NCBI GenBank assembly: GCA_002254765.1
Contig: NJDV01000044.1
Span: 1 to 10,563, forward strand
Source: Thermoplasmatales archaeon ex4484_36
Lineage (GTDB): Archaea > Thermoplasmatota > Penumbrarchaeia > Penumbrarchaeales > EX4484-36
Length of the DNA stretch: 10,563 nt
Direction of reading: 5' to 3'
Shown: positions 4,339 through 7,919 of the stretch, piece after piece
How the letters are laid out: every line of letters begins with the position of its first letter
Position numbering within the stretch: position 1 is the stretch's first letter
Notes under the pieces: model-generated
The model's database searches: none
What the model saw: the letters and a program-made list of their open reading frames with translations, nothing else
Told to the model about the DNA's origin: nothing
Position numbers and translations under genes: made by a program

Positions 4339-4389
4339 CACCTTGGTAGAAAGGAAAAGCCGACCCAAAAATAAAGATGGGGGATATTG

Positions 4390-5157
4390 ATGGCAAAAAA
4401 GATAACAATCGTCAACCAGAAGGGAGGCGTCGGAAAAACCACCACGGCAGTAAACCTCTCCGCATCCTTAGCGGTTCTGGGAAAAAAGACACTTCTTATC
4501 GACACGGACCCTCAGGGAAACGCAACCTCAGGCCTTGGGTTTGTGAAGCACGAACTGAAGTTTACAATATACGAGGTGCTCACGGACCAGTGCGACGTTG
4601 AGGAAGCCATACTCAACACGGACATTGAGGACCTCCACCTCATAGGCGCCAATGTGAACCTCGCCGGCGCCACCGTTGAGCTGGTTGACATCCCCGACAG
4701 GGAGTATATCATGAAAAAGAAGCTGGAGAAGCTCAACGGCCGCTACGATTACATTATCCTTGATTCGCCCCCCTCCCTAGGGCTCCTCACGATCAACAAC
4801 CTTGTAGCCTCCGACTCCGTGCTCATACCACTGCAGTGCGAATATTACGCTCTTGAAGGTATGAGTGAGCTTCTGGATACCATATACCTCGTCCAGAAGA
4901 ACCTGAACCCGGAATTGCAGCTTGAAGGAATACTGATGACCATGTACGATTCCAGAACGAATTTATCCAAACAGGTGGTGGAGGAGGTGAGGTCCTATTT
5001 TGGGGAGAAGGTTTATAAAACCGTAATTCCCAGAAATGTTAAGCTGGGTGAGGCACCCAGCTTTGGCAAGCCCGTGGTCCTATATATGCCCTCCGCTTCT
5101 GGCGCCAGGGCGTACCTGGAGCTAGCCAAGGAAGTGATCTCCCATGAAGAAGGGTAA
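4390..5157 (+). CDS. ParA/Soj-family ATPase
   Basis: This is a deviant Walker-type ATPase that in related systems forms ATP-dependent dimers on DNA and positions or separates chromosomes, plasmids or large complexes. The 255-residue protein is full length and of chromosomal Soj type without an N-terminal HTH. Visible motifs: deviant Walker A with signature lysine K11 (KGGVGKTT, 11-18), DTDPQGN at 38-44 (Walker A'), and Walker B IILDSPP around D125. LIPLQCEYYALEG and the C-terminal VIPRNVKLGEAPSFGKPV are typical of Soj. ATG 4390 is preferred, with gggggat just upstream; a TTG at 4387 would add one residue. It overlaps the next gene by 14 bases. A ParB with HTH is absent from the window; instead the next gene carries a ParB-like N-terminal peptide. 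What it positions is not known. Confidence 0.9.
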   Translation: MAKKITIVNQKGGVGKTTTAVNLSASLAVLGKKTLLIDTDPQGNATSGLGFVKHELKFTIYEVLTDQCDVEEAILNTDIEDLHLIGANVNLAGATVELVDIPDREYIMKKKLEKLNGRYDYIILDSPPSLGLLTINNLVASDSVLIPLQCEYYALEGMSELLDTIYLVQKNLNPELQLEGILMTMYDSRTNLSKQVVEEVRSYFGEKVYKTVIPRNVKLGEAPSFGKPVVLYMPSASGARAYLELAKEVISHEEG

Positions 5158-5776
5158 ACTGGCCCTCGGTAGAGGACTTAAAGAGCTCCTCCCTACAGCT
5201 TTGAAGGAGGTGGGGGGAGAGGAAGCTGGGCTAGAGGAGCTTTTGGAGGAGCTTAAAAAGGTCAAAGAGAGGGTTGAGGTTCTCGGATATCCTACAGAGG
5301 GCATCGATGAGTTTTTGAAGAGAGAGAAGTTCACCAAAGAAGAGGTGAGGGATGAGCTGGAAAGATGGCGGAGCCATCTGGTTTCTCTGACCCGCCTTGA
5401 GACCGTCTTGAGGCAGATGGAGTCTCTCAAGATGACCTCTCAGGTGGTCTCTTACAGAGGCCGCGTGAGCGCCGGGGAAGAGCCGGAAGTGGTCCTTGCA
5501 AAGGCGGAGAAGGAGCTCAAGAAGGCTGTTTTGAAGAGAAGTAGAAAGAGGATTCCAGAGGACGAGATAAGCGAAGTCAGAAAGATGATTGAGGAGTCAA
5601 AGGAGAGCCTTCAGAAGGAGGGGGCCGAAGAGCACCTTGAGGAGGCCAAAGAGGAGGCTGTAAAAAAGATAGAGGAGCTTTCCCGAAGCCTTGAGGAGTT
5701 GACAAAGCTCATGGGCGTTGAGGGAGAGGAAGAGGCTTTAAAAGAGGAGGAGGGGAGGGTTGAGGAGGAGACCTGA
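5144..5776 (+). CDS. Coiled-coil protein with ParB-like ParA-activating N-terminus
   Basis: The 210-residue product starts MKKGKLALGRGLKELLP. This closely resembles the first residues of bacterial ParB/Spo0J (consensus near GLGRGLxALLP), a basic peptide that binds ParA and stimulates its ATPase; lysines 2, 3, 5 and R10 supply the charge. After residue 17 nothing resembles ParB: there is no GxRR CTP-binding box, no helix-turn-helix and no ParB dimer domain. The rest is charged helix, likely coiled coil at about 28-50, a helical part at 55-120, and a long Glu/Lys/Leu coiled coil at about 120-195, ending in a very acidic tail. The start is firm: ggaagtgat (5130-5138) precedes ATG 5144 and the gene overlaps the parA 3' end by 14 bases, so translation is probably coupled. 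I infer a ParA partner; the cargo or DNA-binding part is not identifiable. The N-terminal match is by eye. Confidence 0.8.
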   Translation: MKKGKLALGRGLKELLPTALKEVGGEEAGLEELLEELKKVKERVEVLGYPTEGIDEFLKREKFTKEEVRDELERWRSHLVSLTRLETVLRQMESLKMTSQVVSYRGRVSAGEEPEVVLAKAEKELKKAVLKRSRKRIPEDEISEVRKMIEESKESLQKEGAEEHLEEAKEEAVKKIEELSRSLEELTKLMGVEGEEEALKEEEGRVEEET

Positions 5777-5781
5777 GCGGG

Positions 5782-6078
5782 GTGGAGAGGGAGGCAAGCC
5801 TGATAAGGATAAAGCTGAAGTATCCCAATCTCCTAGAGGAGGTGGAGGAGGACCTAAAGAGACTGAAGGACCTTCTGAGCAAGGGGGGTGCAGTAGGAGA
5901 GGTGAAAAAGCACCGGGCGGAGGAGGAATCCGTGGATGCCTTGCTCGACAGAGCGAAGAAGCTATATATTGCTGGGGAACTTCAGCAGGCGAAGGAGCTG
6001 TTCGAAAAGGTTCTTGAGCTCGCCCCTGAAAACCCCACAGCCAAATTCATGCTGAGGAGAATAAATATGAGGCTGTAG
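5782..6078 (+). CDS. Small protein with one TPR motif
   Basis: The product has 98 residues. The first half (about 8-50) is a charged helical or coiled-coil segment; the second half, from about residue 51 to 84, reads as one tetratricopeptide repeat: ALLDRAKKLYIAGELQQAKE followed by LFEKVLELAPENP, with the expected small and aromatic positions. TPRs bind other proteins, so it may be an adaptor. GTG 5782 is the only normal start codon in this open frame after the stop at 5761-5763; its ribosome binding site is weak, but it lies 5 bases after the stop of the coiled-coil gene, so translation may be coupled. It forms a three-gene unit with parA and the ParB-peptide gene. Its TAG is directly adjacent to the end of the convergent thyX gene, with no bases between. 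Function unknown. Confidence 0.7.
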   Translation: MEREASLIRIKLKYPNLLEEVEEDLKRLKDLLSKGGAVGEVKKHRAEEESVDALLDRAKKLYIAGELQQAKELFEKVLELAPENPTAKFMLRRINMRL

Positions 6079-6854: not shown

Positions 6855-7866
6855 TCAAATAGAGCCCAGAATCCTTTTGGCCATCTCCTCGTCGATCCCC
6901 TCTATCATGATGAGGTCCTCTACTGTAGCTTCCTTGAGCTCATCTATGTCTCTGTAGCCGCTCTCCTTGAGCTTCTTTATGATCTCCTCGCTCAACCCTT
7001 CTATCTCCTCCAAGGACTGGGGCTTCTTCCCCTCCCCTTCTCTCTCACCCTTCTCCTCCACCTTCTCCTTCACCTTGCTCTTGTTGGGGAATATGATTCC
7101 CTTGATCTTCCCGAGGACGCCCTTTATGTTTTGTATGATAGCGCTCACAGCCCCCGGCCCCTTCTGTTTGACCTCCTCCTCCGCTGCCTCCTCTTTTTTC
7201 TCCTCAGCCTCAGGGGTCACCTCAGGTGTCTCCTCCTTCGGGACTGTATATGCCCGGACGGCCTCCATCACCTTTGCGGCCAGGTTCTTGCCCACCCCCT
7301 CGATTTCCATAAGCTCCTTCTCCGTGACCTGAGGGCCGTCTTCTCCCCAATCCCCCTGAATCTGCTGAGGTCCTCTACCGCAGAGCCTGCAATCTTCTCA
7401 ACAGTGTTGATCCCATTTTCGTAGAGGGTCTTCAGTGTCTGGCGGGTCACCCCGGGGATGTCTCTGAAGAGCTCGGAGAACTCTTCGAAGGAGAGCTCCA
7501 CAGCCTCAGAGGCCGCTGCCTCCTCGGGGGCCTTTTCAGCCTCAACAGCTCCGTGGGGTACCTGTTTATGATTTCCTGAACCACATCCCTTCTCAGACGG
7601 GGTATTGTCAGCAGGATCTCCTCAAGTCTCCCACCCCCATACTCCTTAGCCCTGGCGATGACCTTCTCCGCCACCTTCTCTCCCACACCCTTGATCTTGA
7701 TAAGCTCTTCAATCGTAGCGTTCTGGAGTTTCTCTACGGTGTCGTATCCGGCGCCATATATGGCCTCGAGGGCCTCCCTCCTCACCCCCCTCATCCCTGA
7801 GAAGATCACATAGAAATCGTTTAGGCTGAGCTTTTGTTCCGCAGGTCTCGCAGTTCTCCCGGCCAT
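6855..7866 (-). pseudogene. Helix-hairpin-helix repeat protein, broken by two frame changes
   Basis: Three overlapping minus-strand reading frames carry consecutive parts of one helix-hairpin-helix (HhH) repeat protein. Part 1 starts at ATG 7866 (GGTGAT four bases upstream) and holds KIKGVGEKVAEKVIARAKEY. Near 7555-7558 the sense continues in another frame (AVEAEKAPEE, then VELSFEEFSELF and FRGIGEKTA). Near 7350-7375 it changes again (QVTEKELMEIEGVGKNLAAK), runs through an acidic linker, and ends with YRDIDELKEATVEDLIMIEG at the TGA 6855-6857. One extra base at each point would restore an open frame of about 337 residues. HhH pairs bind the DNA or RNA backbone; a nucleic-acid role is inferred. 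Part 3 alone could be made from ATG 7310 (ggag upstream, 151 residues), and part 1 ends at 7447. Causes may be real decay, small deletions, sequencing errors or programmed frameshifting. Confidence 0.75.
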
Positions 7867-7919
7867 CTGTATCACCTTTGCTGGTTTAAAGAGAAGTGAC
7901 CCTGAATAAGCCTCTTTGT

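Follow-up and report, generated by a model that had tools for sequence, protein, structure and literature searches.

The locus described here raises the question of what a ParA of bacterial type moves in an archaeon when the gene directly behind it encodes what appears to be the ParA-activating peptide of a ParB on a body that is not that of a ParB. Two parts of the question can be separated: (i) whether the peptide is a genuine relative of the ParB motif; and (ii) what the body attached to it holds on to. The window (the whole stretch of DNA that was analysed, 10,563 nucleotides, contig C35 in an archaeal MAG that is 54% complete) contains a Soj-type parA gene followed by a gene whose product fits no Pfam or NCBIfam family (Table 1). 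We consider it probable, at roughly two chances in three (0.66), that the two proteins would act as a cargo-positioning pair on the ParA/ParB principle without a ParB, with the partner as a ParA-activating cargo adaptor.

Table 1. Features of the parA locus, in coordinates of the window
Feature	Coordinates	Strand	Basis
parA, Soj-type ParA ATPase, 255 aa	4390..5157	+	Pfam AAA_31 (PF13614), E 4.9e-68
ParA partner (adaptor), 210 aa, ATG start	5144..5776	+	ORF after parA; orthologue behind parA in 10/10 order genomes
Putative ParB-type ParA-activating peptide, residues 1-17, MKKGKLALGRGLKELLP	5144..5194	+	Motif conservation; register with M. xanthus ParB
Peptide core, L8-L16	5165-5191	+	Part of residues 1-17
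Compact all-helical module, about residues 28-136	5225..5551	+	AlphaFold2, block means of pLDDT 93-98 for residues 31-130
Charged low-confidence helices, residues 137-210	5552..5773	+	AlphaFold2; place of linker and first half of module 2 in relatives
Second half of module 2, other frame	5770..5886	+	Family profile, E 0.006; tblastn of P0017, 34% identity, E 2.6e-9, frame 1
Separate ORF with C-terminal TPR, 98 aa, GTG start	5782..6078	+	Pfam TPR_2, E 1.1e-5, just below cut-off; family profile

The initial annotation had recognized the upstream gene as a full-length Soj-type ParA, and the identification is sound: besides the Pfam match, the protein aligns without gaps to the ParA of Myxococcus xanthus (PDB 8RAY, the structure from PMC12462528), with 135 of 248 residues identical (54%). 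Its start is placed at the ATG at 4390, though the TTG at 4387 may also serve, and the deviant Walker A motif reads KGGVGKTT. Among the best 120 of 7964 database matches, the named proteins outside its own clade are ParA/Soj proteins of Bacillota with 59-62% identity, while the closest unnamed one has 65%. The hydrophobic ParB pocket of the M. xanthus protein (V116, L150, L152, L155, L187 and L192) corresponds to V96, L130, L132, I135, L167 and L172 in the window ParA, which is five of six residues identical and one Leu changed to Ile; the Arg pocket (Y81, E82, D110 and E117) corresponds to Y61, E62, N90 and E97, three of four being identical with Asn in the place of D110. Across 47 ParAs (that of the window and P0034-P0079) all of these positions vary little or not at all, the exception being the D110 place, which is N in 30, Q in 15 and H in 2; this substitution weakens the case for a positioning pair. 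Of the basic residues for non-specific DNA binding, the position of M. xanthus R238 is K in 33 and R in 14 of the 47 proteins, and R189, a residue that binds DNA, is retained in all 47. Because the ParAs are similar along their whole length, conservation of the pocket is weak evidence.

The ORFs confirm that a 210-residue protein follows directly, its gene sharing 14 bases (5144-5157) with parA. In M. xanthus ParB, the ParA-binding motif comprises residues 11-19, with hydrophobic contacts through L11, L15, L18 and I19; R13 is required for full stimulation of the ParA ATPase, and about half of chromosomal ParBs have Lys in its place (PMC12462528). The ParB-like peptide noticed initially falls in this register, with L8, R10, L12, L15 and L16 of the window protein equivalent to L11, R13, L15, L18 and I19, and the partners of family f2 have Lys at the R13 place. 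Because the residues correspond to the mapped motif and its pocket, we propose that the partner likely binds and activates ParA via the peptide.

A parA gene with an overlapping, peptide-bearing adaptor gene is present in 10/10 genomes of the archaeal order to which the window belongs (in G005 the ParA is cut by a contig end and still visible), and in every order adaptor the consensus ALG[KR]G[LMI][KR][DE]L[LI] lies a few residues from the start. The peptide thus proved to be kept among orthologues, occurring in 29 of 31 family proteins, the remaining two being without their N-terminus. It is the best-conserved segment of the partner: mean pairwise identity among the 31 proteins is 0.85 in the peptide, 0.29 in the linker after it, 0.51 in domain 1, 0.46 in domain 2 and 0.59 in the TPR, and a comparison of the two proteins of the window's own family with the other members gives 0.60 in the peptide against 0.19 in domain 1. 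As a background, mechanically called ORFs of at least 200 aa in the fetched loci were searched over their first 60 residues, and a similar core was found in 28 of 498, of which 26 are parA-adjacent partners; only 2 of the 472 other ORFs have it. The peptide is no chance match, because all ten order genomes have the core on the gene after parA. Both the persistence of the overlapping pair throughout the order and the position of its most conserved segment in the M. xanthus ParB register support the proposal of a ParA-activating adaptor.

The partner has 50% identity to that of its genus mate (genome G001; NCBI J7L88_05360, Thermoplasmata archaeon), and a database search with the family profile found at least 30 proteins, the best 7993 candidates by shared words being scored. 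In 389 genomes of the phylum, with at most four candidates per genome scored, the profile matches listed from outside the order all start at or after profile position 28; among the matches listed, the family combining peptide and body is seen only in the order.

The body of the partner had been described as charged helices and coiled coil. The predicted structure consists mainly of a compact helical domain at about residues 28-136, preceded by a disordered N-terminus and followed by helices of low confidence. Relatives are longer than the window protein and comprise the peptide, two helical modules, an acidic linker and a TPR. The AlphaFold2 model of the f2 orthologue P0004 illustrates this organization. 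Residues 8-17 form a short helix (low confidence, ~51) and 17-26 are disordered; the first helical domain ends at residue 127, with block means of 84-95 from residue 31 onwards. Past a linker come the second helical domain (about 191-290; 85-95), an acidic region that is disordered and extends to about 351, and the TPR (360-406; 89-94). This order of elements, a short helix and a disordered stretch before folded domains, supports an adaptor function.

The reported absence of a ParB CTPase box and HTH was borne out. Pfam gives no ParB_N or HTH match for the window partner at E up to 1 (nine matches, all below cut-offs), and no ParB_N (PF02195), HTH or RHH for 10 family members at E up to 0.1. 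Nor was a hidden ParB or HTH fold found in Pfam, PDB sequence or Foldseek comparisons: the window model has no Foldseek match in the PDB at E ≤ 0.001, the models of P0004 and of the window partner contain no strands, and the PDB sequences that the family matches at E below 0.1 are TPR/PPR-type repeats or fusion proteins containing such repeats. The TPR of the relatives is backed by PDB sequence and fold matches, and no PDB entry is convincingly related to the helical module.

It could be argued that the partner merely regulates ParA, through its dimer state or its gradient, and carries no cargo. Such a role would agree with the flanks of the pair, which by eye contain glycolytic and purine genes or are variable and in which no conserved cargo gene was seen. 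However, it leaves the well-folded predicted modules and the conserved TPR tail unexplained, and partners of ParA/MinD proteins generally use the body for cargo (PMC10241942); we regard a pure regulator as distinctly improbable.

The window copy of the gene is itself irregular. In the eight f2 genomes the partner is encoded by one uninterrupted ORF (349-447 aa) that includes peptide, modules and TPR, whereas in the window the TPR, which is fused to the adaptor in f2, lies in a separate ORF (family profile positions 334-393 match 5893-6072, E 6.4e-12). When P0017 was compared by tblastn, with filters off, to a 1-kb stretch of the window, it aligned with DLSGVEREASLIRIKLKYP, and homology to the second half of module 2 begins at 5770, 12 bases upstream of the first codon at which the downstream ORF could start. 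The window gene is split or frameshifted and its module 2 eroded; this may reflect a genuine splitting of the gene, its decay or an error in the sequence, and it weakens our interpretation because the copy may be damaged or the sequence wrong. In its extreme form the objection is that this copy is no more than a pseudogene, or a product of misassembly, and therefore uninformative. The displacement of module 2 and the TPR into another frame would agree with this, as would the near-identical database copy P0002, whose protein sequence differs from the window's at the C-terminus in a way that would fit a one-base change nearby. Peptide and domain 1 are, however, intact and conserved with the genus mate, and the f2 relatives are single ORFs, so that we give this explanation hardly any credence. 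In G001 the contig ends inside the partner gene. On the minus strand of the window at 6855-7875, ORFs with helix-hairpin-helix motifs apparently represent one gene broken into frames, and frameshifts may be frequent in the contig.

ParB_N (PF02195) was found in 0/10 order genomes, the named control genomes being positive. In the phylum it is present in 42 of 389 genomes; among the 141 with a Soj-type ParA (E ≤ 1e-30), comparison of the two lists by eye leaves only G070, G097 and G123, whose matches are weak (E 3.8e-7 to 3.0e-6). For the ParB_N matches in G010 and G011, a motif scan found no ParA within about 1.5 kb on either side. At least one archaeal protein annotated as ParB is a serine kinase (PMC5120207). 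The order genomes were also scanned for parS. The parS consensus TGTTNCACGTGNAACA has no exact match in the ten genomes, and a site with one mismatch occurs once each in 3/10, compared with 2/10 for the reversed control, which places parS-like sites at background. The MAGs are incomplete, making absence of ParB_N or parS soft for any single genome. These results fit the earlier suggestion that the ParA is linked to something other than parS.

They also bear on the scenario that the pair still segregates chromosomes, with the partner reaching DNA without parS through SMC, through a DnaA-domain protein with related modules or through an unrecognised DNA-binding surface. SMC is present in 9/9 order genomes searched, which speaks for it. 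On the other hand, parS is not above background, the partner has no HTH or RHH match and its linker is acidic. We judge the scenario unlikely, though two further observations, on ribbon-helix-helix-like partners and on related modules, count in its favour and are given below.

The survey of archaeal parA neighbourhoods proposed with the initial annotation places the peptide on four types of body in Thermoplasmatota. Ninety parA loci were examined, 10 from the order and 80 from elsewhere in the phylum, the latter being all 76 listed matches at E ≤ 2.5e-52 and four weaker ones (L103, L107, L108 and L170); the interval searched for a partner began 100 bases upstream of the parA stop and ended 400 bases downstream of it. 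The core is present behind parA in 10/10 partners with modules and TPR, in 19/19 partners of a class termed 'D' (about 130-165 aa; all from f18 or f28, the latter in part; the one partner scanned matched no Pfam family) and in 16/16 partners of f29 and f47 that resemble ribbon-helix-helix (RHH) proteins, a label that is a reading of the sequence, the one partner scanned having no Pfam match. At one of these loci, L100, the peptide gene starts 295 bases past the parA stop, beyond another ORF. Since RHH is the fold of archaeal SegB, these partners favour a chromosomal role. The fourth type, from family f28, is an EamA-type protein (one scanned, EamA E 1.9e-24), with the core in 18 of 36 by pattern and a nineteenth by eye (L145, GLGRSL). 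An example is L104:3757-4719, an EamA-type membrane transporter gene after parA with an N-terminal GLGRGL-like peptide.

The occurrence of the peptide on other bodies behind Soj-type ParAs (19/19, 16/16 and 18/36) supports positioning of a cargo through a peptide-bearing adaptor, and its absence from half of the EamA-type loci weakens it. At these loci (18/36 by pattern, 17 by eye) the EamA-type gene still adjoins parA; adjacency therefore survives loss of the peptide there. By eye, 'D' and EamA partners have about 30 N-terminal residues in common, and are therefore not independent. Nine loci are without the peptide. In three the ParA is fused to modules, and three more are the second ParAs of those genomes; of the rest, two have a ParA of a second class and one is from f36. 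The second class, found in f18 and f28 (E ~1e-45 to 1e-30), is large, and the two members sampled (L103 and L107) both are without peptide.

In the fusions (G017, G036 and G028; families f10 and f20), a Soj-type ParA 58-61% identical to that of the window is itself extended at the C-terminus by related helical modules, which follow a Pro/Glu-rich linker (family profile E 1.7e-10, 1.6e-10 and 3.2e-11, respectively). The fusions link ParA and module independently of the peptide, and together with the lack of ParB_N in the order they support the proposed pairing of ParA with a cargo adaptor. No peptide gene lies behind the fusions in the three genomes, which is a point against it. The same genomes have a second ParA of ordinary length, also with no peptide gene behind (L094, L095 and L096). 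In a 53-row ParA tree, the order (11 rows) forms one clade (100/98), as do the RHH-type ParAs (100/100), the 'D' and EamA ParAs together (100/100) and the fused ParAs (100/99); the relation of the clades to bacterial Soj is without resolution in this tree. The systems may have come from bacteria by several transfers in which the ParB body was lost.

Thermoplasmatota have related modules on a DnaA-domain protein (PF00308, E 6.5e-65), on long repeat proteins and, by eye, on TPR and zinc-ribbon proteins. The first, L175:3273-7091 on the minus strand, has 1273 aa with a bacterial-type DnaA ATPase domain, many helical modules and a zinc ribbon; L180 and L182 resemble it by look, L175 alone having been scanned. 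To our knowledge, a bacterial-type DnaA ATPase domain is unusual in archaea. A conserved paralogue of about 900 aa (L171, L172, L173, L177 and L178) combines, by eye, several of the helical modules with a TPR-like stretch, and its tail is Cys-rich and DnaJ-like; L172 matches no Pfam family. Ahead of their first modules these paralogues have a GKGVFALIRDN-like segment that resembles the ParB-type peptide. The modules on the DnaA-domain proteins and, by eye, on the Cys-rich-tail paralogue are the second observation that speaks for a chromosomal role.

A broader picture, which we offer tentatively and at somewhat less than even odds, is that the bacterial ParB peptide turned into a portable tag in Thermoplasmatota, retained next to Soj-type ParAs, the ParB body having been replaced separately by lineage with modules and TPR, an RHH-like protein, a small soluble protein or a membrane transporter. 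In the order, the peptide would then tie ParA to a cytoplasmic assembly of module-sharing proteins, the DnaA-domain and Cys-rich-tail paralogues.

How might a ParA and a peptide-bearing adaptor position a cargo? Judging from the conserved residues, ParA-ATP dimers would coat the nucleoid; the helical module or modules and the TPR would hold the partner on its cargo, which would then follow the ParA gradient. The cargo would probably be a protein assembly and not parS DNA, and our best guess is either a scaffold of module-sharing proteins or the chromosome, to which these proteins would give access. Of the order genomes, 8/9 have pilin or archaellin-like genes, and such structures may be the cargo. 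Chemoreceptor arrays are unlikely for the order because the signalling domain is found in just 1/9 genomes.

The pair has points in common with several known systems. It resembles ParABS (Soj/Spo0J; M. xanthus, PMC12462528) in the identity of the ParA, the register of the basic-hydrophobic N-terminal peptide and the retention of the pocket; it differs in that the window partner has no CTPase domain or HTH and no parS was found, the body being helical modules and TPR. Partners of ParA/MinD proteins are diverse, and a charged N-terminus is in use among them (PMC10241942). With McdAB and other such cargo pairs (PMC10241942 and PMC12204374) it shares an activating N-terminus (putative here) on a non-ParB body, but it is archaeal, its peptide is ParB-type, its ParA is Soj-like and its window neighbourhood contains no carboxysome or other microcompartment genes. 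Archaeal SegAB likewise has a parA-like gene overlapping the partner gene, but SegB is a ribbon-helix-helix DNA binder (PMC12284271 and PMC9178275), unlike the window partner, which lacks RHH in Pfam and strands in the models; the f29 and f47 partners look closer to SegB. The orphan ParA PpfA, which positions chemoreceptors with TlpT (PMC9178275), also works without ParB and with a non-ParB partner, but the scarcity of the chemoreceptor signalling domain in the order sets it apart.

As far as searches of the open-access PMC literature show, a ParB-type peptide on non-ParB bodies beside the Soj-type ParAs of an archaeal phylum is new; no description was found there of the canonical chromosomal ParB peptide detached from ParB across such a phylum. 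The arrangement suggests a ParA cargo different from the usual ParB-marked DNA. If so, the peptide would provide a sequence tag by which partners could be found for archaeal 'orphan' ParAs, and the pairs would amount to a natural experiment that shows what portion of ParB is needed to drive ParA; they would also open a concrete way into the question of what is moved by ParA in archaea.

Finally, we note that the neighbours of the pair in the window are genes for FBPase, TIM, purF and ThyX. A tRNA-Lys (CTT) at 755-830 on the minus strand falls within the upstream extension that mechanical calling gave to the FBPase ORF (671-2095), and the FBPase Pfam domain begins at residue 107 of this ORF; the real FBPase start is therefore further down.
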